Below, one piece after another: positions 25,870-60,046 of a DNA stretch of 64,000 nucleotides (positions are counted from its first letter, which is position 1; each line of letters opens with the position of its first letter). The notes beneath the pieces are model-generated. The model was not told the origin of the DNA. It searched no databases and saw nothing but the letters and a program-made list of their open reading frames with translations. The position numbers and the translations under genes were made by a program. This DNA comes from Halapricum salinum (GTDB lineage Archaea; Halobacteriota; Halobacteria; Halobacteriales; Haloarculaceae): the NCBI RefSeq assembly GCF_004799665.1, contig NZ_CP031310.1, positions 2,534,887 through 2,598,886 of the forward strand. The letters run 5' to 3'.

Positions 25870-26690
25870 ACGCTAGGAACTGTGACTGCCGGAGACAGCA
25901 CCTTCTCGAAAGCCCTCACCACGCTCGACGTTTCGGGGCTCTCACGGCTCCCTCCGGTCGCCGTTCGAACAATTCGAGGCCTCACTCCGTTCGGCCTCGT
26001 GCTCGCTCATTTCGAGACTCTCATTTCGTTCGAGTCTCGCGGGCGACACGCTTCCTGACCGCTCCGCGGTGGCCGGGAGCGGCTTTCCTGCCGCGTAGCG
26101 AGAGAGCTCCGCTCTCTCGGACCTCGCGGTGTAACCGCGAGAATCCGGGGAAGGGCAGGCTTGCTGTGCTGTCACTACAAGCATACGGCGACCGGAGGGA
26201 GCCGTTTCACCGGACGCGAAGCCGGAGGCTGAGCGTCCGGGTCATTTTTCCCCACGTTTTTCTGACCGAGAGGTGCCCACAGCGAACGAAGTGAGCGAGG
26301 ACACCCGAGGGAGGAAAAAGTGGTTGTGGCAGGCCTGCTGTGCTGTCACTACAAGCATACGGCGACCGGAGGGAGCCGTTTCACCGGACGCGAAGCCGGA
26401 GGCTGAGCGTCCGGGTCATTTTTCCCCACGTTTTTCTGACCGAGAGGTGCCCACAGCGAACGAAGTGAGCGAGGACACCCGAGGGAGGAAAAAGTGGTTG
26501 TGGCAGGCCTGCTGTGCGGATGCCTGGCGGATCGAAAGGGCGAGACTCGCTGGCGCTGGACAGGGAGTCGCTGAGCAGGCCCTATTCGAGCGAAGCGAGA
26601 ATATCCTGCTCAGCGGCCGCCAGCGAGTAGAGGGCTTTCCTTGCTTGTTGCCTTCAGTAACACCACAGTCTCATAGCCAGCGAGTCGAGA
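25870..26690. repeat. Long non-coding repeat element, copy B (upstream of proC)
   Basis: This copy is a direct repeat of the element at 21958-22785, 3.9 kb away, with the proCBA operon between them. It begins with CTAGGAACTG...CTCGAAAGCCCTCACCACGC and ends with TAGCCAGCGAGTCGAGAG. It differs in the variable hairpins (for example AGAGAGCTCCGCTCTCT at 26101-26117, and CTGAGCAGG...CCTGCTCAG at 26571-26614) and in holding two copies of the 174-bp module. No gene is supported inside it; frames are short or shadows. Confidence 0.75.
26163..26510. repeat. Perfect tandem duplication of the 174-bp module
   Basis: The unit starting GCTGTGCTGTCAC at 26163 recurs at 26337 with no differences that I can see, and a third partial boundary (GCTGTG) follows at 26511. 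The same unit occurs once at about 22490 in element A with scattered substitutions. Each unit is bounded by GGCAGGCYTGYTGTG, so unequal recombination between these short repeats would create or remove units. Confidence 0.9.
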
Positions 26691-34785: not shown

Positions 34786-37700
34786 TTGGGTGCGGCCGTA
34801 TTCGCCGTACTACTGACAGTATCGATGTTCGCGCCTGCAGTGAGCGCGCAGACGAACACCAGCGACGACACCAGTCTTCAGTCGAATACTGGATCGCAGA
34901 TTGCACAGCAGTCACTCGTGAATACGAGCGACGATCCAGCGATCGTTCTGAAGATTCGGGCTATCGAACGGGTACGAACGCTTGAAGCGAGCGACCCGAT
35001 CAACGACACCCTGGTGTCGACGCTGTATCACTACAGGGGACCGACTCGCGTCAATTCGAGTAGCGTCTTCAGGAGCGATGCGCAAGCACTACGCGACCTC
35101 CGACGGTATGTTTCTGATCCTGACTCCGCTGCGAATGCAACCAGAGCAGGCGTTCTACTGGCTGGTGCTGATAATAAGACTGCCTACCGTGCAGTCCGAG
35201 ATGCAGAGCAGGCGCTTGCGTTTGCGCGCGACCGAATCGATCACCGGGGAACACTCAGGAGTTCCCAGGCGCATCTGGACAATGCCCGACGCGCGTACCA
35301 ACGTGGCCTCTCGGAACTCGACCGTGCGGGGACGGCCGACGCCGAGCGCGCACTCGATCATCGCGCACAGGCTGTGATTCACTTCCGACAGGCGTGGACG
35401 CAGTCCCAGCAGGTTCTGGACCGACTCGACGGCTCTCTCTCGCCGGAGGTTACGATCACGAATCGCGCTGATCCTGTTCGAAACGGCTCTGCCAACCGGA
35501 CTGTCAGTGCGCTCGTTCGATCAGTTCGTCCGGAGACGATCGAAACTGCGACTGTGTTCGTCGACGGGCAGGAACGGACGACGACCAACGTCTCGACACT
35601 CGGGGTCGGCCCCGCCGGGAACGCGACCCTGAGTACGACCGTTCGACTTTCCGACCGAACGGCCAACGTGACCGTCGTCGTCCAGTCGGGGGCTGCTACG
35701 AGTAGTAACGAACCGCATAGTGACGACAGACGCGGCGGTCCGCCGTCGCATGCTAGGTCCGGCGGGAACGGAAACGGCGGCCCGCCTGCACACGCTGGTC
35801 AAAGCGACGAGAAGGTCGGTGAAACCGGGCACGCGACGCTGCTCCTCGATGGCGATGGTCTCAACGACACGTACGAACGGGAGATACTCGGGACTGATCC
35901 GCTCGCCCCTGACAGCGATGCCTCAGTCACCGACGCCGACGAGAGTGACGACGGCGTGATCGACGGCGCAGAAGACTTCGACGGTGACGCTCTCCAGACG
36001 GTTCGAGAACTCGAACTCGGGACAGACCCGCTGGAGGCAGACACCGACGGAGATGGCCTTAACGACGGATTCGAACTGCACCTCACGGAGACGGACCCGC
36101 TCGATCCTGATACAGATGGGGACGGCCTCGACGATGGCAGCGAAGACCTCGACGACGACGGATTGACCAATGCTGAAGAAAGCGACGCCGGAACCGTACC
36201 CCAGCTGGCCGACGCCGACCAGGACGGACTGACCGACGCGCAGGAACTCGACAACGAGACGGATCCGTTCGAGTCTGATACCGACGGCGACGGGCTTGAC
36301 GACGGCGTGGAGATAGCGGCGCCGTACAATACTGAGCCGACCGATCCCGACACCGACGACGATGGCGTCCTCGACGGAAACGAAACCTACACGTCGAGTG
36401 TCGAAAACGAGTCGCTGGGCGTCAGCGTCGAAGTGACCGGTCAGGGTGATGCTGTCGCGACTACCACTATCGAGAAGCCGACACACGCCCGATTTGCCGA
36501 GGAGAGCCCGTTGGCTCGGAACGTCTCCGTCGCGGAAGGAACCTTCGCAAACTTCGAGACGGAGGGTGAGATCGACAGCGCGACACTCACGTTCGAGTAC
36601 AACGAGAGTCAGATCTCGACCAACGAGTCAGCACTTTCGGTGTATCGCTTCAACGAGACGCTCCAGCGCTACGAGAAACTCCCGTCGGCGGTCGATCCCG
36701 ACGCCGACACGATCAGCGCGAACACGAGCCACTTCTCGACCTATACCGTGCTGGACGAAGGGGCGTACCAGGCGTTTCTCACCCGAATGCGGGAGGCCGT
36801 CGTCACGGGTGAGACGTCCGTTATCTACCAGGAAGACTTCGAGGGAATGTCGCTGGACGATTCGGCGTGGACCTGTCGGAACGATCCGCGCGGTGGCCCG
36901 TACGGAGACACCCCGGCGAAGGGATTCTGTGACGTAGAGGACGGGTGGGCTACCGTGCAGGAAGAGACCAACCGAATGCGCTATCTCAATCGGACCGTGA
37001 CGCTGGACGTCCCCGAGGACTCGAACGTGCTGGTCACGACGCACGTCAAAGCCCAGATCAACGCCGAGTGGTCCGGGGCGGCGATGAAGCTGGTCGTCGA
37101 AAACGGCAGCGAGTCGCGGACGGTCGCAGCACTCAAGAATGACTGGTCGGGCCAGACCCGTACGATCGACACCGTGACGACCGCCGACGTGAGCGATTTC
37201 GCTGGCGAGACGGTCAACATCTCGTTGCAGGCCGACGGCCGCTGGACCTACCAGCGTCAGAACACGACCTCGTGGATCTCGGTCAACAATATTACGATCA
37301 CTGGTGGGCAGTTGGAAGACGCCGACGGTGACGGGATTCCCGATCTGCAGGAGCAGCACCTGCCGTTGCGGAACTATGGTGTGGTGTCTACGAGTACCGC
37401 GACCGAGTCCGATGGATCAAACCCAGGATTCGACACAGATGGAGACGGTCTTCCTGATGGTGTCGAAGTTATCAATACGACGAAGGTGATTGCGCCAGAT
37501 GCTACTCAGAGAACTGTTATTGACGCCGGAGTGGTTCGGACATCTGAGTACGAGTGGGTAGATCCATCGACGTATGTCAATGAGGGCGTCTTGGTCGACT
37601 CAAGCGATGGATTTTACGGATATCCATGGCTCTCAGACCCGACGGAAGCAGACACCGATGGAGATGGTCTCGAAGACGATACTGAACTATACGGCTGGGG

Positions 37701-39603
37701 AGTGTCTGTGACGACAACGACGAATTCAGAGGGTGAGACGGTCCCGTATCGATGGGCCTCACCAGATGAGACTCCTGATGAGACAGTCCGGTTCACGTCT
37801 GATCCGAAGGAATATAACAGCGACGACGATGGCGTCGATGATGCTGAGGAAAAGCGACTGAAGACTGATCCGGCGAGTGAGCAGACGTATTACGTGACTG
37901 CTGAACACGAGGAGCTGTTGCGGAACTCGTTCTCGGCGAATCTCTCGTTCGAAGACCCGTTCAGAACTCTTAGCTCCGCATATACGATGGATCAAATGGG
38001 TCTCCTCCGGGACGATCTCGAATTCCAGCCCTGGGACCCGGCTCTCGATGACGGCACGGACGACTTCGATCTCAAGATCGACCAGTCACATGATGGACTT
38101 GGCCAGTACTACGTTCTGAAAATAGCTGGTCGTGACCGAACGGACTACTGGCTCTCGAACGAGCAGGAATTACAGAGTTGCCAGGGGTGCTCTCCGTACG
38201 CTCGATATTACGAGGAAGTCAGCACTGGTCCGTGGCTGGCCGATAGTGACGGTGATGGTCTGACTGACGGCCAGGAGATGAGTGGTGTCGACATTATAGT
38301 GGATGGTTCGAGCCGGGTGTATTCTACGAATCCGAATTTGAGAGACACAGATCAAGATAGACTGGGAGATTTAGCGGAATATCGGTTTGGTGGTAATCCT
38401 GTGGATCGGAATCCCGATGGCGATCAGTTCGGAGACTTTGCAGATCCGCAGCCTCGAACTGAGAATACTTTCCCGTCAATAAATGTAACTTTCAACCCAA
38501 CATTATTCGGGGGAAGTAGGGGTGTTACTGCTACCGATGAGTCGGGGATCCACCGTCTAATACTCACATATGAAGTGAAATCAAAACAGGGTGAATGGGG
38601 AGAAGTCCAATACTCTGGACGAGAAGTGTCTGAGAATAAACGGAGCATAACTGGAGTCTCTATACCCTCCGACGCTAGAAATATTACAGCTACAGCTGTA
38701 GATGAAAATGGTAACTCCCTCTCGATAGGACTCAAATTCGAAGACTCCAGTGGCGAAGTGACGGGGATCGGAATGAATGCTGCTGGACTCACACCGTTCG
38801 TGCCTGTTGCTTCAGCGGAACCAACCCCCGCAGGGGAGGTAATCTTGGGTATCCTCATCACGGGTGCAGTCACTATCGATATCGGTCAACGAGTATACTC
38901 TGTCATAACTTCTGACGGGACGACGCGGACCTACGAAGCTCCACGATACGCAACTCCAGTACAGGAGAGCTACAATTCCGGTGAGATTCTGCTCACGGAA
39001 GGCCACCTTGAGACGAACGGCGGATTCACGCGGGGCTACGGCTGGGAATATATCTCAGCGACGACGGAACTCACTCAGAGTGAGGTCAGTACGATCGTCA
39101 ACAACGGCCGGACGATCGATCGGCAGGGACCGGTGGATTACATCATCGGCAATATCGGTGACAAGACGGTCGTGCTGACGGTGATCGGCAGCACGCTGAT
39201 GGCGGCGTCAACGGATGGATTCACTAACGATCCGTGTAATCAAGCTGAGACAGTTGATCTTGAATACGAAGAAGATCACTACACACGTAATCCCGAAAAC
39301 ACTCCTGAGAAACCATATGATGACCGGTCAACTGTGAAAAAGTTACTTGACGATGGGAGTGAAGCGGCTCTTGAAACGGCTAATGGGAAACGGTATTATA
39401 TCAAGAAAGTTGGTCCAAACCAGTGGACAGTAATCGTTCTTCTGCCAGTCGTAGAAGAGATATCAGGAAAGATGGTAAATAATTTTGCGAAGCGATTTGT
39501 TAAAACGTTCCTCACTGATGTTGATGATGGGGAACAATTCTTTGACTCTAAAGACGAAGCTAAAGACGCAATTGATGAACACGTAACAGAAATTAATTGT
39601 TGA
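34786..39603 (+). CDS. Giant secreted TSP3-repeat protein with variable C-terminal tip; candidate polymorphic toxin
   Basis: This 1605-residue protein begins with a hydrophobic signal-like segment (AAVFAVLLTVSMFAPAVSAQ) and no ATG; TTG at 34786 is the apparent start, and an upstream in-frame ATG is cut off by TGA. TSP3-like Ca-binding repeats (DTDGDGLDDG type) occur at about residues 354-540, 844-1010 and 1151-1200. A LamG-like part (about 690-840) and an Ig-like part (about 1230-1340) lie between and after. A hydrophobic pre-tip segment at 1438-1473 (YIIGNIGDKTVVLTVIG) leads to a 132-residue tip ending in Cys. GC content falls from about 37380 onward. The next gene starts 2 bp after the stop and looks like an immunity gene. 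A toxin delivered or released at the surface is the inference; an adhesin is the alternative. Confidence 0.75.
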   Translation: MGAAVFAVLLTVSMFAPAVSAQTNTSDDTSLQSNTGSQIAQQSLVNTSDDPAIVLKIRAIERVRTLEASDPINDTLVSTLYHYRGPTRVNSSSVFRSDAQALRDLRRYVSDPDSAANATRAGVLLAGADNKTAYRAVRDAEQALAFARDRIDHRGTLRSSQAHLDNARRAYQRGLSELDRAGTADAERALDHRAQAVIHFRQAWTQSQQVLDRLDGSLSPEVTITNRADPVRNGSANRTVSALVRSVRPETIETATVFVDGQERTTTNVSTLGVGPAGNATLSTTVRLSDRTANVTVVVQSGAATSSNEPHSDDRRGGPPSHARSGGNGNGGPPAHAGQSDEKVGETGHATLLLDGDGLNDTYEREILGTDPLAPDSDASVTDADESDDGVIDGAEDFDGDALQTVRELELGTDPLEADTDGDGLNDGFELHLTETDPLDPDTDGDGLDDGSEDLDDDGLTNAEESDAGTVPQLADADQDGLTDAQELDNETDPFESDTDGDGLDDGVEIAAPYNTEPTDPDTDDDGVLDGNETYTSSVENESLGVSVEVTGQGDAVATTTIEKPTHARFAEESPLARNVSVAEGTFANFETEGEIDSATLTFEYNESQISTNESALSVYRFNETLQRYEKLPSAVDPDADTISANTSHFSTYTVLDEGAYQAFLTRMREAVVTGETSVIYQEDFEGMSLDDSAWTCRNDPRGGPYGDTPAKGFCDVEDGWATVQEETNRMRYLNRTVTLDVPEDSNVLVTTHVKAQINAEWSGAAMKLVVENGSESRTVAALKNDWSGQTRTIDTVTTADVSDFAGETVNISLQADGRWTYQRQNTTSWISVNNITITGGQLEDADGDGIPDLQEQHLPLRNYGVVSTSTATESDGSNPGFDTDGDGLPDGVEVINTTKVIAPDATQRTVIDAGVVRTSEYEWVDPSTYVNEGVLVDSSDGFYGYPWLSDPTEADTDGDGLEDDTELYGWGVSVTTTTNSEGETVPYRWASPDETPDETVRFTSDPKEYNSDDDGVDDAEEKRLKTDPASEQTYYVTAEHEELLRNSFSANLSFEDPFRTLSSAYTMDQMGLLRDDLEFQPWDPALDDGTDDFDLKIDQSHDGLGQYYVLKIAGRDRTDYWLSNEQELQSCQGCSPYARYYEEVSTGPWLADSDGDGLTDGQEMSGVDIIVDGSSRVYSTNPNLRDTDQDRLGDLAEYRFGGNPVDRNPDGDQFGDFADPQPRTENTFPSINVTFNPTLFGGSRGVTATDESGIHRLILTYEVKSKQGEWGEVQYSGREVSENKRSITGVSIPSDARNITATAVDENGNSLSIGLKFEDSSGEVTGIGMNAAGLTPFVPVASAEPTPAGEVILGILITGAVTIDIGQRVYSVITSDGTTRTYEAPRYATPVQESYNSGEILLTEGHLETNGGFTRGYGWEYISATTELTQSEVSTIVNNGRTIDRQGPVDYIIGNIGDKTVVLTVIGSTLMAASTDGFTNDPCNQAETVDLEYEEDHYTRNPENTPEKPYDDRSTVKKLLDDGSEAALETANGKRYYIKKVGPNQWTVIVLLPVVEEISGKMVNNFAKRFVKTFLTDVDDGEQFFDSKDEAKDAIDEHVTEINC
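39096..39206 (+). repeat. 111-bp pre-tip repeat, copy 1 (inside the giant protein gene)
   Basis: This segment encodes the end of the pre-tip region (VNNGRTIDRQGPVDYIIG onward). It is repeated at 40248-40358 with only two mismatches, both in the CAGGGACCGG part. Sequence similarity stops sharply at both ends, where the two coding contexts diverge. Confidence 0.95.
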
Positions 39604-39605
39604 CA

Positions 39606-40232
39606 ATGACTCGAAAATCTGGCAAACACAAGGAAAACAGAGCCAAGGAATATCATAAAAACGGGCAGTTCGAAAATGCTGCAACGTCATATACCCAAGC
39701 TGCATATGAGTTCCTTGGTGAAAATGGCCTTACGCATTCGGTGTCAGCAGCTAGCGGTCTCAGGAATCTCCTTGTCGGAGCTGCCTGTTTTCGATTCCAA
39801 AAGTCAACCGAACAGTGTACTAATCATTGCTGGCAAGGAGTTTATATGACCGAGGCGATCGCTAAGGAGGCTATGGATCTCCCGCAGGAAGAACATAGCT
39901 ACGATCAGTCGGTCCGCGGCATCTGGTTTGAGTTTGAAGGTGATTTTCGCACAGTTGGGGGTTTACCTGGTGCTGGGTCTGCTTATGATCAAGCAAGGTC
40001 TGTATATTGCGATGCTGGCAATCCTGACACAGCGTCATTTGAGCAGTATCATCTGGCAGTGTCTGCTTTCACAAAAATTGTTTTTCGAGAGACTGATACT
40101 GCTGCTGACGAATTGAATACTGTTCTCAGACCCGGCCACAAACTGACTGACTGGATAGATTTCAAGGAACGGTATCTCTCAGATGCCCTCTCTGAACTAT
40201 ATAGTCAAGAAAACTGGAACTATAAATTCTAG
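39606..40232 (+). CDS. TPR-like protein, candidate immunity protein 1
   Basis: The 208-residue soluble protein is helical in appearance and has no signal or membrane segment. Its N-terminal region (AKEYHKNGQFENAATSYTQA, ending in AAYEF) resembles a tetratricopeptide helix pair. It starts 2 bp after the stop of the giant secreted protein, the usual toxin-immunity spacing. A clear paralogue (40772-41416) follows the orphan tip in the same geometry; shared blocks include RGIWFEFEGDFRTV against RGAWHEFIGDLRTV and a C-terminal QENW against QGSW. Immunity by binding the tip is an inference from context. A chaperone for the tip is an alternative. Confidence 0.7.
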   Translation: MTRKSGKHKENRAKEYHKNGQFENAATSYTQAAYEFLGENGLTHSVSAASGLRNLLVGAACFRFQKSTEQCTNHCWQGVYMTEAIAKEAMDLPQEEHSYDQSVRGIWFEFEGDFRTVGGLPGAGSAYDQARSVYCDAGNPDTASFEQYHLAVSAFTKIVFRETDTAADELNTVLRPGHKLTDWIDFKERYLSDALSELYSQENWNYKF

Positions 40233-40770
40233 AGCAACGACAAATTCCGTCAACAACGGCCGGACGATCGATCGGCAGGGGCCCGTGGATTACATCATCG
40301 GCAATATCGGTGACAAGACGGTCGTGCTGACGGTGATCGGCAGCACGCTGATGGCGGCAGAAGAATTTTCCCGCCCAGTCGAACATGATGCGTCTGAATC
40401 AAATTGTAACGGCGAGGATTTCGTTGTAGAGACTGAGAACAAGCGAAATTCTGGCCCTGACAATCCGGAGCATACGCTCCGAGATGAGAAACCGATTAAC
40501 AGCTACGAGAAACTCAAAGAGATCATTAAAAACCCAGATCGAATACTCGACTTCGGAAACCGTAGATATCTACTAAAACGATTCGAAGGCGGAAAGACTG
40601 CGGTTATTAAACTCCATAAGAATCTTGATCCGACGCTTTCGGATGTCGTCTTTGAGCTCATCACCCAGTTAACTGACAGCAACAGACTATACGATTCAAT
40701 GGATGATGCTGTAGATGATATGGAAGAGGATATTGAAGATGACGATCCAACAAGGGATATCGACTGCTAA
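40183..40770 (+). CDS. Headless (orphan) toxin-tip cassette
   Basis: The frame encodes 195 residues, but the first 22 (from an ATG inside the preceding gene) have no relatives here. Real homology begins at residue 23 with VNNGRTIDRQGPVDYIIG, identical to the giant protein's pre-tip segment. A different 135-residue tip follows. It shares with tip 1 a CN near its start, a central basic stretch (NRRYLLKRF against GKRYYIKKV) and a terminal Cys after an acidic run. There is no signal peptide or evident promoter, so it is probably silent until joined to the large gene by recombination, like orphan CdiA-CT modules in bacteria. Confidence 0.65.
   Translation: MPSLNYIVKKTGTINSRATTNSVNNGRTIDRQGPVDYIIGNIGDKTVVLTVIGSTLMAAEEFSRPVEHDASESNCNGEDFVVETENKRNSGPDNPEHTLRDEKPINSYEKLKEIIKNPDRILDFGNRRYLLKRFEGGKTAVIKLHKNLDPTLSDVVFELITQLTDSNRLYDSMDDAVDDMEEDIEDDDPTRDIDC
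40248..40358 (+). repeat. 111-bp pre-tip repeat, copy 2 (head of the orphan tip)
   Basis: 109 of 111 bases match 39096-39206 in the same orientation, 1152 bp downstream. Recombination between the copies would delete tip 1 plus its neighbour gene and fuse tip 2 in frame to the large protein. Confidence 0.95.
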
Positions 40771-40771
40771 A

Positions 40772-41416
40772 ATGAAAGAAAAAGCAAGAAACCTCTCAAA
40801 GAAAGCAGAGGAATTACGTCAATCCGATCGGCTCCAGGCTGCTGGAAACTACTACACAGCTTCAGCTCATGAATATGCCGGAGTCGTGACTGAGCATACA
40901 TTCCCTGGTGCTGATAAAACGGTGTCCGCTCTTGGAGAGTTACTCAACGCCGCCACCTGTTATCGTCTCGTTGGCGACACGTACCGAGTGAATAACAGGT
41001 GTGAACTAGGTACTCTACTGGCTGAAGATTACCTCAATTACATTGATTCCGGAGAGTGGGACGAAAACTCATTTGTTCCGTTCCGTCGAGGTGCATGGCA
41101 CGAATTTATCGGCGATCTTCGAACCGTTGCAGAGAAGGAAGAAGCAAGCAACGCATACGAGAAGGCGATTGACATCTATATTTCTGCTGGTGACTGGGAA
41201 GTCGTTTACGGAGAGAAAGAACACCTTCGGATAGCGTCGTATCTTAGAAGTGTCCGGAGGGGGCTCGGACACGATATCTCTGAGGATGCACCCGAGATGC
41301 AGGGTTCCGGGACAACCTTCTCAGAATGGGTTTGGTACAAACAAGAGAACTTGCCAAAATACCTATCCCAGCTAGAAGCTCAGGGATCCTGGCCGACACA
41401 AATCGATCAGTCATAA
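40772..41416 (+). CDS. TPR-like protein, candidate immunity protein 2 (paralogue)
   Basis: The 214-residue soluble protein starts one base after the orphan tip stop. It aligns along its length with the gene at 39606: KKAEELRQSDRLQAAGNYYT, a central Cys (AATCYRL against GAACFRF), the RGAWHEFIGDLRTV block, YEKAIDIYISAGD, EKEHLRIA, and an ending with Q(E/G)xW. Divergence between the two matches divergence between the two tips, as expected for specific toxin-immunity pairs. It has no promoter that I can see, although read-through from the upstream genes is possible. Confidence 0.7.
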   Translation: MKEKARNLSKKAEELRQSDRLQAAGNYYTASAHEYAGVVTEHTFPGADKTVSALGELLNAATCYRLVGDTYRVNNRCELGTLLAEDYLNYIDSGEWDENSFVPFRRGAWHEFIGDLRTVAEKEEASNAYEKAIDIYISAGDWEVVYGEKEHLRIASYLRSVRRGLGHDISEDAPEMQGSGTTFSEWVWYKQENLPKYLSQLEAQGSWPTQIDQS

Positions 41417-49885: not shown

Positions 49886-52800
49886 ATGCACATCACAGAG
49901 CTCGTACTCGACAACTTCAAGAGCTTCGGTCGGAAGACGCGAATCCCCTTCTACGAAGACTTTACGACTATTAGCGGCCCGAACGGCTCGGGCAAGTCCA
50001 ACATTATCGACGCCGTGCTGTTCGCGCTCGGACTCGCTCGAACCTCGGGTATCCGCGCGGAGAAGCTGACGGATCTCATCTACAACCCCGGCCACGCCGA
50101 CGAGGAAGTCGAACACGCGGGCGAGCGCGAGGCCAGCGTCGAGGTCGTCCTCGACAACTCCGACGGAACCCTCGATCGTTCGCAGGTCGTCAACGCCGCC
50201 GGCACGGAGAAGGTCGGCGACATCGAGGAGATCACGATCAAGCGCCGCGTCAAGGAGACCGACGACAACTACTACTCCTACTATTATATCAACGGTCGCT
50301 CCGTGAATCTCTCGGACATCCAGGACCTGCTCGCGCAGGCCGGCGTCACGCCCGAGGGGTACAACGTCGTCATGCAGGGCGACGTGACCGAGATCATCAA
50401 CATGACGCCCTACGCCCGCCGGCAGATCATCGACGAGATCGCGGGCGTCGCGGAGTTCGACGCCAAGAAAGAGGACGCCTTCGAGGAACTCGAAGTAGTC
50501 GAGGACCGCATCGAGGAGGCCGACCTCCGCATCGAAGAGAAACAGGATCGCCTCGACCAGCTCGAAGACGAACGCGAGACCGCCCTGGAATATCAGGAGC
50601 TACGCGAGCAGAAAGAAGAGTACGAGGGCTATCGCAAGGCCGCGGAGTTAGAGGACAAGCGCGAGGATCTCGGCGAGGTTCGCGAGAAGATCGACACCAA
50701 GGAAGACGAACTCGCAGCGCTGCAGGCCGAACTCGACGAGCGCCAGGGCAAAGTCGTGCGGCTGGAAGACGAACTCGCGGAGTTGAACCGCGAGATCGAA
50801 CGCAAAGGAGAGGACGAGCAACTCCAGCTCAAACGCGAGATCGAGGAGGTCAAAGGCGAGATTTCGCGGCTCGAAGACAAGATCGCCAATGCGGAAGAGA
50901 AACTCGAAGACGCCGAGAACGAACGCCGTCAGTCGTTTGTCGAGATCGACCGCAAGCAGGAGACGATCGACGATCTGGACGGCGAGATCCGCGAGATCAA
51001 AGTGAAGAAGTCCTCGCTGATGGCCGAGATCCAGGAGAAAGAAGCGGAGTTAGAGCGGGTCGAAGCCGAGATCGAGGAGTTAGGCGAGGAGTTCGAGGAC
51101 GTCCGGGAGGAACTGCAGGCCCGCAAAGAGGATCTCGCGCAAGCGAAATCCGAACGCAACGACCTCCAGCACGAGCAGGATCGACTGCTCGACGAGGCCC
51201 GGCGGCGCTCGAACGCCCAGCAGGAGAAAGAGGAGGCCATCGAAGAGGCCCAACAGCGGATCCCGGAGATCGAGGCCGAACTCGAAGACCTACAGGCCGA
51301 ACTGGAGAAGGCCCAGAAGAACCGCGAGACGATCACCGAGGTCGTCGAGGACCTCACCCAGGAAAAGCGCGAACTCCAGTCGGATCTCGACTCGATCGAA
51401 GACGAGATCAGCGCGAAACAGCAGCAGTACGCACAGTTAGAAGCCAAAGCTGACGATTCGGGCGACAGCTCTTACGGCCGCGCGGTGACGACGATCCTCA
51501 ACGCTGGCAAAGACGGCGTCCACGGCACGGTCGCTCAGTTGGGCAGTGTCAGCGGGAAGTACTCTGTCGCCTGTGAAACCGCCGCTGGCGGGCGGATGGC
51601 CCACGTCGTGGTCGACGACGACGGCGTCGGCCAGCGCTGTATCGAGTACCTCAAGTCCCGAAACGCCGGCCGAGCGACGTTCCTGCCAATCACGAAGATG
51701 CAGCATCGGTCGCTACCGAGCAAACCCGACCATCCGGGCGTCGTGGACTTCGCGTACAATCTCGTGGACTTCGACAGCGAGTACGCGGCCGTCTTCTCGT
51801 ATGTCCTCGGCGACACGCTCGTGGTCGAGGACATGCAGACCGCCCGCGACTTGATGGGCGACGCTCGACTCGTCACGCTCGATGGCGACCTCGTCGAGAA
51901 GAGCGGCGCGATGACCGGCGGTTCTCAGAGCGGCTCGCGCTATTCGTTCGCGGGGAGCGAGGGCAAACTCGAACGCGTGGCTCAGCAGATCAACGACCTC
52001 GAAGATCAGCGCCAGGACATCCGGAGCGACATCCGGGACGTCGAAGACCGGCTGGAAGACGCCCGCGACCGCAAGTCCGACGCCGCCGAACAGGTCCGAG
52101 ATATCGAAAACGAGATCGAGAAACGCGAGAGCGAGCGCGAGGCCGTCCGCGAGGAGATCAGTGATCTCGAAGCCGACCTGGAATCGATCGAAGACGAACG
52201 CGAGGAAGTCTCCGATCGGATGGACGAGATCGAAGCCGAGATCGAGGCCAAAGCGGACGAGATCGCTGAGATCGAGAGCGAGATCGACGACCTCGAGACC
52301 GAGATCGAGGATTCGGAGCTGCCGGACCTCACGGACGAGGCCGAAGAGATCCAGGAAGCGATCGACGATCTCCAGAGCAAGGTCGACGATCTCGACGCCG
52401 AGTTGAACGAGAAACAGCTCGAGAAGGAGTACGCCGAGGACGCGATCGACGATCTCCACGAGACGATCGAGACCGCGCAGAACCGAAAGGCAGACTGCCA
52501 GAAGGAGATCGCCGAACTCGAATCGAAGATCGAGGAGCAGGAAGAGATACTCGACGAGAAAGAGGCCGCAGTCGCAGACCTCGAAGACGAACTGGCCGAC
52601 CTCAAAGGCGAGCGCGAGGACCTCCGCGAGGATCTGAAAGCGGCCAAGAACGAGCGCGACGAGCAGAGAGACGCGGTCGAGCGCGTCCAGAGCAAACTCG
52701 ACTCCTTGGAGGAGACCGCAGAGCGACTGGACTGGGAGATCGACGAACTCGAGAGCGAGGTCGGCGACTACGACCCCGAGGAGATCCCCGACCACCACAC

Positions 52801-53458
52801 GGTCGAGTCCCAGATCGGGCGCCTGGAGAGCGAGATGGAGAAGCTCGAACCCGTGAACATGCTCGCGATCGAGGAGTACGACGACGTGCAGGCGGATCTC
52901 GACGACCTGGAGGACAAGCGCGCGACCCTGCAGGAGGAGGCCGACGGGATCCGCGAGCGGATCGAGTCCTACGAAGCGAAGAAAAAGGAGACGTTCATGG
53001 AGGCGTTCGACGCGATCAACGGCTACTTCCAGGACATCTTCGAGCGCCTCTCGAACGGGACGGGCCACCTCCATCTCGAAGACGAAGACGACCCCTTCGA
53101 GGGGGGTCTGACGATGAAGGCCCAGCCGGGCGACAAGCCGATCCAGCGGCTCAACGCGATGAGCGGAGGCGAGAAGTCCCTGACGGCGCTCGCGTTCATC
53201 TTCGCGATCCAGCGCCACAACCCCGCACCCTTCTACGCGCTGGACGAGGTCGACGCGTTTCTGGACGCCCACAACGCCGACCTCGTTGGCGAGATGGTCG
53301 ACGAACTCGCCGGCGACGCCCAGTTCGTCGTCGTCAGCCATCGCTCGGCGCTGCTCGAACGATCCGAGCGCGCCATCGGCGTGACGATGCAACAGGACAA
53401 CGTCTCCGCGGTGACTGGGATCGACCTGAGTACAGGAGGTGTTCCGGCAGATGACTAG
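49886..53458 (+). CDS. smc: Chromosome segregation ATPase SMC
   Basis: The 1190-residue protein has the full SMC layout. Walker A (GPNGSGKSN) is at about residue 33. A long coiled coil runs to about 510, then the hinge with GKYSVACETAAGGRMAHVVVDD, a second coiled coil to about 1000, and a C-terminal head with the signature LNAMSGGEKSLTALAFIFAI and Walker B (YALDEVDAFLD). The ATPase dimer entraps DNA with ScpA. It is followed by an overlapping ORF that leads into scpA. Confidence 0.97.
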   Translation: MHITELVLDNFKSFGRKTRIPFYEDFTTISGPNGSGKSNIIDAVLFALGLARTSGIRAEKLTDLIYNPGHADEEVEHAGEREASVEVVLDNSDGTLDRSQVVNAAGTEKVGDIEEITIKRRVKETDDNYYSYYYINGRSVNLSDIQDLLAQAGVTPEGYNVVMQGDVTEIINMTPYARRQIIDEIAGVAEFDAKKEDAFEELEVVEDRIEEADLRIEEKQDRLDQLEDERETALEYQELREQKEEYEGYRKAAELEDKREDLGEVREKIDTKEDELAALQAELDERQGKVVRLEDELAELNREIERKGEDEQLQLKREIEEVKGEISRLEDKIANAEEKLEDAENERRQSFVEIDRKQETIDDLDGEIREIKVKKSSLMAEIQEKEAELERVEAEIEELGEEFEDVREELQARKEDLAQAKSERNDLQHEQDRLLDEARRRSNAQQEKEEAIEEAQQRIPEIEAELEDLQAELEKAQKNRETITEVVEDLTQEKRELQSDLDSIEDEISAKQQQYAQLEAKADDSGDSSYGRAVTTILNAGKDGVHGTVAQLGSVSGKYSVACETAAGGRMAHVVVDDDGVGQRCIEYLKSRNAGRATFLPITKMQHRSLPSKPDHPGVVDFAYNLVDFDSEYAAVFSYVLGDTLVVEDMQTARDLMGDARLVTLDGDLVEKSGAMTGGSQSGSRYSFAGSEGKLERVAQQINDLEDQRQDIRSDIRDVEDRLEDARDRKSDAAEQVRDIENEIEKRESEREAVREEISDLEADLESIEDEREEVSDRMDEIEAEIEAKADEIAEIESEIDDLETEIEDSELPDLTDEAEEIQEAIDDLQSKVDDLDAELNEKQLEKEYAEDAIDDLHETIETAQNRKADCQKEIAELESKIEEQEEILDEKEAAVADLEDELADLKGEREDLREDLKAAKNERDEQRDAVERVQSKLDSLEETAERLDWEIDELESEVGDYDPEEIPDHHTVESQIGRLESEMEKLEPVNMLAIEEYDDVQADLDDLEDKRATLQEEADGIRERIESYEAKKKETFMEAFDAINGYFQDIFERLSNGTGHLHLEDEDDPFEGGLTMKAQPGDKPIQRLNAMSGGEKSLTALAFIFAIQRHNPAPFYALDEVDAFLDAHNADLVGEMVDELAGDAQFVVVSHRSALLERSERAIGVTMQQDNVSAVTGIDLSTGGVPADD

Positions 53459-53774
53459 CGCGGTTCTGAGCGTCGCGAAGAACCGCGGAAAATGCGAACG
53501 GGGAGCGGAGCGACCCGTGAGCAGAGCTGCCCGCAGCGCAGCAAGGGCAGCGGAAACGCGAGCGGGGGAAGCCGCGAGCAGGGAGACGCGAACGGTAGTG
53601 AGCGTCTCCGAAAGTCGAGCGGGGGAAGCCGCGAGCAGGGAGACGCGAACGGTAGTGAGCGTCTCCGAAAGTCGAGCGGGGGAAGCCGCGAGCAGGGAGA
53701 CGCGAACGGTAGTGAGCGTCTCCGAAAGTCGAGCGGGGGAAGCCGCGAGCAGTAGGACCGGAGGTGAGCCATGA
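53451..53774 (+). CDS. 107-codon repeat-built ORF bridging smc and scpA
   Basis: An ATG overlapping the smc stop (GATGACTAG) opens a frame that runs through the whole gap and ends in TGA overlapping the scpA ATG (CCATGACT). Most of it is three 57-bp repeats, so the protein repeats a 19-residue unit (RAGEAASRETRTVVSVSES). The composition (Arg/Ala/Ser/Glu rich, not acidic) is unlike its neighbours. The frame may be kept only because the repeat is 19 codons long and because continuous translation couples smc to scpA; a functional protein is doubtful. Confidence 0.4.
   Translation: MTSAVLSVAKNRGKCERGAERPVSRAARSAARAAETRAGEAASRETRTVVSVSESRAGEAASRETRTVVSVSESRAGEAASRETRTVVSVSESRAGEAASSRTGGEP
53560..53752. 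repeat. 57-bp tandem repeats, three units plus a partial fourth
   Basis: Units start at 53560, 53617, 53674 and 53731 and look identical. Each contains the inverted repeat GAGACGC...GCGTCTC around the loop GAACGGTAGTGA. The region just upstream (GCGAACGGGGAGCGGAGCGA then CCCGTGAGC) has a related hairpin that also occurs in repeat element A at about 22435. Confidence 0.95.
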
Positions 53775-54730
53775 CTGAGGAGGATATTCCGCTGAATATC
53801 GCAGGCCACGAGGATCGTGACGCACCGGACGAAGGGGACACCGCCAGCGAGGACACCCGTAGCCTCCCGGACGGCGGAACGAGCGTCGTCACCGGCAGCG
53901 ATCAGGGCGGCCCCGGTGGGCCACCCGGGCCCGAAGGGCCGGGAGAAGACGAGGTCGAACCGGTCGAGGTGCTCGTCCAGCTGGCCGAAGACGGCGAGAT
54001 CGACCCGTGGGACATCGACGTCGTCCGGGTGACCGACAAGTTCCTCGACGCCCTGGAGGAGGCCGACCTGCGGACCTCGGGGCGGGCGCTGTTCTACGCG
54101 AGCGTCCTCGTCCGAATGAAGAGCGACGCGATGCTCGAAGACGACGAGCCAGAGGAGGACGCCTTCGACGAGGCTGACCCGTGGCAGGAGCCGCTGGGCG
54201 ACGAGGAGTTGGAGGTCGATCCGTTCGATCAACTCGACGCCGAGATGGATCGGCGACTCGAACGCAAGCGCGCCCGGGGGATGCCCCAGACGCTGGACGA
54301 ACTCGTCCACGAACTCAGAGACGCCGAGCGGGGCAACTGGTGGAAAGAGTCACGAGAGTACGACACCAGCGACTCGCCACACGGCTACTCCCGGGGGACC
54401 CAGGAACTCGACTATCGAAGCGGCGACGACCTGCGGATGGACGACGAACCCACCGCAGCGGACGTGACGGGGACGGCCCACGCCGAGAACATCGACGAGA
54501 TCATCGACGACGTCTACGGCGCGGTGTCCGAACACTACGACGCCGGTCGTGCCGAGGTGCTCTACCGGGAAGTGTCCGACTCGGGAGGGACCCGCGTCGA
54601 GACGTTCCTCGGGCTGCTGTTCCTGGCGCACCGCGGCGACGTCCGACTCCGGCAGGACGACCTGTTCGGCGACCTCTGGATTCAGGATCCCGACGCCGAA
54701 ACTGCCAGCGAGGAAGCTGCCGCAGACTGA
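53771..54730 (+). CDS. scpA: Segregation and condensation protein A (kleisin)
   Basis: The 319-residue ScpA has an acidic N-terminal extension of about 60 residues, then PVEVLVQLAEDGEIDPWDIDVVRVTDKFLDAL, the SMC-binding N-terminal kleisin helix. ALFYASVLVRMKSDAML follows, and a C-terminal winged-helix region (RVETFLGLLFLAHRGDVRLRQDDLFGDLWI) closes the ring on the SMC head. SD GGAGGTGA lies 8 bp before the ATG. It is coupled to smc through an overlapping repeat-built ORF. Confidence 0.93.
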   Translation: MTEEDIPLNIAGHEDRDAPDEGDTASEDTRSLPDGGTSVVTGSDQGGPGGPPGPEGPGEDEVEPVEVLVQLAEDGEIDPWDIDVVRVTDKFLDALEEADLRTSGRALFYASVLVRMKSDAMLEDDEPEEDAFDEADPWQEPLGDEELEVDPFDQLDAEMDRRLERKRARGMPQTLDELVHELRDAERGNWWKESREYDTSDSPHGYSRGTQELDYRSGDDLRMDDEPTAADVTGTAHAENIDEIIDDVYGAVSEHYDAGRAEVLYREVSDSGGTRVETFLGLLFLAHRGDVRLRQDDLFGDLWIQDPDAETASEEAAAD

Positions 54731-59739: not shown

Positions 59740-59971
59740 CGGGCGCGGTGGGATTGTGAACAACGCGAAGACGATCGCCCTCGCTTCGCTCGGGCGCTGC
59801 GACTTCTCTCGTTCAAATCCCGCTGGCCGCTTCGCTCGTCGCGTCTGCTCCTCGCAGAAGCGGGCGCGGCGGGATTTGAACCCGATGGCGAGACTCACTG
59901 CGTTCGTCTCGCGTGATTCAAATCCCGCCGCGCTGCGATTCAGCACGCCTCGCAATCGCTCGGCGGCTTCA
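59740..59971. repeat. Cluster of displaced tRNA-Arg 3'-end fragments and conserved-loop hairpins
   Basis: The 3' half of the adjacent tRNA-Arg (GGGCGCGGCGGGATTTGAAC at 59973) recurs perfectly over 22 bp at 59862-59883 and in degraded form at 59740-59761. Inverted copies (GTTCAAATCCCGCTGG at 59811, GATTCAAATCCCGCCGCG at 59915) lie between. A hairpin CGAGAC-TCACTGCGTTC-GTCTCG is at 59889-59911. The 307-bp gap from the channel start to the tRNA holds no gene. Confidence 0.7.
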
Positions 59972-60046
59972 CGGGCGCGGCGGGATTTGAACCCACGACC
60001 ATCGGATTAGAAGTCCGATGCTCTGTCCGGACTGAGCTACGCGCCC
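59972..60046 (-). tRNA. tRNA-Arg (anticodon TCT)
   Basis: On the minus strand the acceptor stem GGGCGCG pairs with CGCGCCC. The anticodon arm CGGA-CTTCTAA-TCCG presents TCT. The T loop is TTCAAAT. The discriminator is G and CCA is not encoded. Several partial copies of its 3' end lie downstream of it. Confidence 0.94.

Follow-up and report, generated by a model that had tools for sequence, protein, structure and literature searches.

What occupies the 312 nt between smc and scpA of Halapricum salinum, and what is the open reading frame that bridges them for? We analysed this junction within a 64,000-nucleotide stretch of the chromosome (the window) and compared it with the corresponding junctions of other haloarchaea.

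Anatomy of the smc–scpA gap

The features of the junction, in window coordinates, were as follows.

49886..53458, + strand: smc, 1190 aa, end GATGACTAG (ORF; Pfam SMC_N and SMC_hinge)
53451..53774, + strand: relay ORF, 107 codons plus stop, ATG at 53451, TGA at 53774 (sequence, ORF list and comparative frame test)
53459..53487, + strand: first hairpin, CGCGGTTCT-11 nt-AGAACCGCG, beginning on the base after the smc TAG
53498..53518, + strand: second proximal hairpin, ACGGG-GA-GC-GGA-GC-GA-CCCGT, outer closure TGC/GCA
53559..53752, + strand: tandem array, 57-bp unit, 3.4 copies, 100% identity (TRF)
53562..53575, + strand: weaker second hairpin type of the unit, GCGG...CCGC, recurring each 57 bp up to 53746
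53582..53609, + strand: unit hairpin, copy 1, GGAGACGC-GA-AC-GGTA-GT-GA-GCGTCTCC
53639..53666, + strand: unit hairpin, copy 2
53696..53723, + strand: unit hairpin, copy 3
53771..54730, + strand: scpA, 319 aa, start ATGACTGA (Pfam SMC_ScpA, PF02616)

The ATG of the relay ORF lies over the smc stop, giving an overlap of 8 nt with the smc 3' end. The ORF then spans the entire hairpin chain and ends, at its TGA, in a 4-nt overlap with the start of scpA. Both overlaps had been described in an earlier note on this DNA and are borne out by the sequence and the ORF list. Each end of the relay ORF thus shows the stop/start overlap and co-direction by which coupled gene pairs are recognised. The same note had identical 57-bp units filling the gap. 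The copies are indeed identical, but the array accounts only for the distal 194 nt of the 312, and the proximal 100 nt (53459-53558) hold different hairpins of the same kind. A perfect 8-bp stem was present in every full unit, and the unit hairpin alone folded at -17.1 kcal/mol as RNA. The whole gap had a folding z-score of -6.1 against shuffled sequence. The relay ORF matched no Pfam family, and an Rfam search of the gap region gave no matches at E up to 1.

One unit equals 19 codons and is stop-free in the relay frame, and the frame therefore stays open for any number of whole units, as the note had stated. However, an open relay frame at this single locus is weak evidence, the array being stop-poor: another sense frame runs for 87 aa without a stop, none of the three antisense frames is closed, and five of the six frames in all are largely open. 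Stops for both of the other frames lie in the scpA start ATGACTGA, and a frame that arrives open therefore ends within 4-8 nt of that start. Because of these stops, relay inserts need not be multiples of 3 and both overlap sizes (4 and 8 nt) occur. We rejected a unit length divisible by 3 as proof of selection: high-identity junction units measured 57, 69, 69 and 66, three of the four lying inside ScpA, and two of five control units were likewise multiples of 3.

Junctions and reading frames across haloarchaea

Junctions were collected from named genomes, the family and the order, with a wider motif used to include 28 loci whose ScpA reads EPWD; 155 were distinct after duplicates were removed. 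The scpA start sat on the smc stop in 114 of them (direct overlap), and hairpins, often present at these junctions, were fused in frame as an N-terminal extension of ScpA (e.g. L008, L029, L046 and L070). An out-of-frame relay ORF lay between the two genes at 35 junctions, so that overlapping ORFs join smc to scpA in 149 of 155. At the other six the overlapping ATG is replaced by ACG; these have no insert, and 3-7 nt separate smc from the scpA start. An uncoupled gap, that is, an insert with an uncoupled stop, occurred at none of the 155, although inserts reached 375 nt. The relay stop overlapped the scpA start by 4 nt at 22 of the 35 relay junctions and by 8 nt at 13, and three loci (L010, L015 and L028) carried chains of two relay ORFs. 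Tandem units of 69 bp were seen in frame in the ScpA N-terminus of Natrarchaeobius (L046, 66-347 nt past the smc stop, 4.1 copies) and Natronococcus (L070, 10-202 nt past the smc stop, 2.8 copies).

This distribution supports the proposal of the earlier note that translation may be coupled through the bridging ORF. The note had named two cases that would speak against it. A frame broken without consequence was not found among these junctions; normal coupling with no repeat was, in relatives such as L002, L009, L047, L060 and L075, which have the direct 8-nt overlap. Since such repeat-free relatives couple directly, the repeat is not required for coupling and is tolerated while it is readable.

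The note had gone further and suggested that changes in unit number could adjust, by way of the bridging ORF, how much SMC is made relative to ScpA. Identical stop-free copies do make a recent change in copy number plausible. However, this suggestion found no support, and we judge it highly improbable: additional units lengthen the relay ORF without adding a reinitiation step, repeat-free junctions exist, and Halapricum species differ in their mixtures of modules and not in counts of the 57-bp unit. With the same two hand-overs at any unit number, additional copies should have little effect, except where the hairpins make ribosomes drop off.

The frames of relay inserts of at least 100 nt were then compared, with control frames counted from the base after the smc stop, since control frames begun within the smc tail are closed by that tail (TGA at -7, smc stop at -3). 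The relay frame was open in 14 of 15 inserts and the other sense frames in 2 of 15 and 4 of 15. In the 3.2 kb of these inserts the relay frame contained 2 stops, versus 50 and 20 in the other frames. The lone closed relay frame is that of L015, where both stops lie and where the first relay stop overlaps the start of the next relay ORF. Uncoupled stops are therefore absent specifically from the relay frame. Arrays of these elements at other sites gave an independent baseline: at lengths of at least 100 nt, a given sense frame was open in only 16 of 36 cases (44%), well below the relay frame. That 44%, together with the largely open frames of the H. salinum locus, would on the other hand favour the reading that stop-poor repeats make an open frame meaningless. 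The difference between the designated relay frame and its two neighbours across junctions makes such a chance origin extremely unlikely.

Multiplying the open-frame fractions in an earlier set of junctions gave 3e-6 over 17 loci, 1e-5 over 16 clusters and 0.008 with one long relay locus per genus (6 genera). On a quick tree, relay versus non-relay status required at least 14 changes (10 for inserts of at least 70 nt), of which the well-supported branches force only 3-4. The open-frame signal is strong but phylogenetically clustered, and the loci are not independent.

The pattern of openness supports selection that would keep ribosomes moving from smc to scpA via termination-reinitiation. An identical lack of stops is predicted if unbroken translation instead shields a long gap from transcription termination or decay, with scpA initiating on its own. 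On that account the overlap with scpA adds little, since ATGACTGA ends any open frame with a 4- or 8-nt overlap automatically. However, a relay requires a start on the smc stop, and that start is kept wherever an insert exists; the six junctions without it have scpA close by and no insert. In addition, untranslated stretches of mRNA have been reported to be stable in Haloferax volcanii (PMC6728339). Avoidance of polarity is the chief competing account, but an unlikely one.

The peptide itself appears to be free to vary. The same module appears in two reading frames at L086, relay peptides have pI values of 4.5-12 with no stable value, and the modules differ among Halapricum species, which argues that openness is kept and the peptide is not. 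In itself the relay peptide is probably functionless.

Distribution of the hairpin family

Most hairpins share one architecture: a stem, a GA/GA internal loop, two pairs and a GNA or GNNA loop. The window contains 14 GA/GA hairpins, versus 0.05-0.35 expected under a Markov null. When first hairpins were sought without the GA requirement (11-12 nt between the arms), nearly all interiors started and ended with GA. Stems and inner pairs vary freely with pairing kept, and all 8 pairs show changes on both sides, in an alignment whose rows were preselected for pairing and which therefore describes covariation and does not prove it. In most Halobacteriales genomes the core GAGCGNAGCGA is about 1.5-2.5 times as frequent as its reversed control; some have a ratio near 1, and elsewhere in the phylum there is no consistent excess. 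At 79 smc/scpA loci, 22 elements lay at the junction versus 3 in 777 kb of flanking DNA, and all 22 were on the sense strand. Hairpins of this class are scattered through Halobacteriales, with strong enrichment at the smc/scpA junction.

This enrichment and uniform orientation, the covariation with the qualification given above and the frequent placement of the first hairpin on the base after the smc TAG would also fit an mRNA element at the junction, acting for example by slowing ribosomes or binding a protein, with frame preservation secondary. We consider such an element very unlikely. Many relatives have no hairpins at the junction, and arrays of these elements also directly follow the carA stop, where there is no coupled gene. 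The sense orientation also fits peptide hydropathy, with a mean GRAVY of -1.4 in the relay/ScpA frame versus +0.42, -0.33 and -1.22 in the antisense frames.

The carA-adjacent arrays were found in this genome (L236:1892-2045) and in a Halapricum relative (L234:1691-2160). Both start directly after the carA TAG stop, carA being named from its translation, and the recurrence of TAG at the unit boundary suggests that the units inserted or spread at such stop codons. We considered and rejected ATGACTAGCGAG as a general signature of insertion, since it is rare genome-wide and mostly confined to the smc/scpA junction. The Y1 (TnpA-REP) transposase associated with REP elements is absent, PF01797 having no match in the whole genome.

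Elsewhere in this genome, two hairpin units lie in frame within a 622-aa S9-peptidase-like gene, named from its translation (L245:1859-1918). An intergenic 174-bp tandem unit (2.1 copies, 99% match) occupies window positions 26154-26517, with more GA/GA hairpins nearby (25944-26603). At window positions 59864-59994, the 3' end of the tRNA-Arg gene (59972-60046, minus strand) has a repeat copy at 59864-59883 and an inverted one at 59914-59933. The GA/GA hairpin type is also represented twice here, at 59776-59912, and past integration at this tRNA may have left the copies and hairpins as scars.

Proposed ribosome hand-over and comparison with known systems

We consider it likely that the gap arose when mosaic palindromic repeats of haloarchaea colonised the smc/scpA junction, with the 57-bp tandem recently expanded, and that inserts survive there only if ribosomes can be handed over from smc to scpA. 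The ancestral junction was probably a direct overlap, GATGACTGA, at which ribosomes finishing smc would reinitiate on scpA. Repeats would have entered at or beside the smc stop codon and met one of two fates, in-frame fusion to ScpA as a disordered N-terminal tail or, at this locus, a relay ORF. A ribosome ending smc would restart on the overlapping relay ATG, read through the relay ORF while melting its hairpins, terminate on the TGA at 53774 and restart on scpA. Smc and scpA, as partners in one complex, would have to stay coupled.

In H. volcanii, reinitiation strictly couples overlapping genes (PMC6728339), and coupling is almost lost once about 20 nt separate the genes (PMC10666635). It is disputed whether post-termination ribosomes scan long gaps or need overlaps (PMC10666635). 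The H. volcanii pairs resemble the present junction in their short ATGA overlaps, in the co-direction of genes for one complex and in the haloarchaeal host; however, the present junction has, in place of the direct overlap, two overlaps with an ORF of palindromic repeats linking them. The word smc is absent from the text of both papers (PMC6728339, PMC10666635).

Helper ORFs are described in bacteria. A small intergenic ORF is reported to promote translation of a gene downstream of it, for a Mg2+ transporter of Salmonella (PMC8092293), and upstream ORFs of a synthetic, nonsense kind are reported to raise translation of their target (PMC13255528). These ORFs are, like the relay ORF, short, upstream of a target gene and of little or no peptide function; unlike it, they are bacterial and not built from repeats.

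The palindromic units in dispersed mosaic arrays agree with one part of the definition of REP/BIME elements. Bacterial REP/BIME and REPIN elements (PMC2817692, PMC3116915) are likewise short palindromic modules in mosaic arrays dispersed through the genome, but this genome has no Y1 transposase, and the haloarchaeal repeats have the GA/GA-GNA architecture and also occur within coding frames. The text of a 2025 survey of REPs in bacteria and archaea contains no word starting with "Halo", and our literature search, which reached few subscription papers, found no description of haloarchaeal GA/GA hairpins.

Termination-reinitiation, intergenic helper ORFs and mosaic palindromes are thus already known. 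Palindromic elements of Rickettsia insert in frame inside proteins, and in both groups palindromic repeats are tolerated in frame in coding sequence. However, the Rickettsia elements are unrelated in sequence, and the haloarchaeal repeats also make separate relay ORFs. Within the same reach of the literature, no description was found of a repeat-built relay ORF that keeps two genes coupled. It is possible, and we put it forward tentatively at somewhat under even chances, that relay ORFs are a distinct and recurrent product of evolution, in which repeat DNA inserted into a coupled junction stays open for the sole purpose of passing ribosomes from one partner gene to the other, selection acting on openness and overlaps and not on the peptide.

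The smc/scpA junctions amount to a natural experiment in a core gene pair, in which inserts have entered repeatedly. The lack of uncoupled gaps argues, from evolution, that smc/scpA needs overlap. For annotators, "hypothetical proteins" of this kind may exist only to be translated.

A separate feature of the window, at 34786-41416, was a region with a 1605-aa surface-type protein that has a low-GC C-terminal end. The sequence VNNGRTIDRQGPVDYIIGNIGDKTVVLTVIGSTLMAA is common to this C-terminal end and to a separate downstream ORF (40183-40770), and small low-GC ORFs lie between and after the two. The arrangement resembles that of a polymorphic toxin accompanied by a spare tip cassette and by immunity-like genes.
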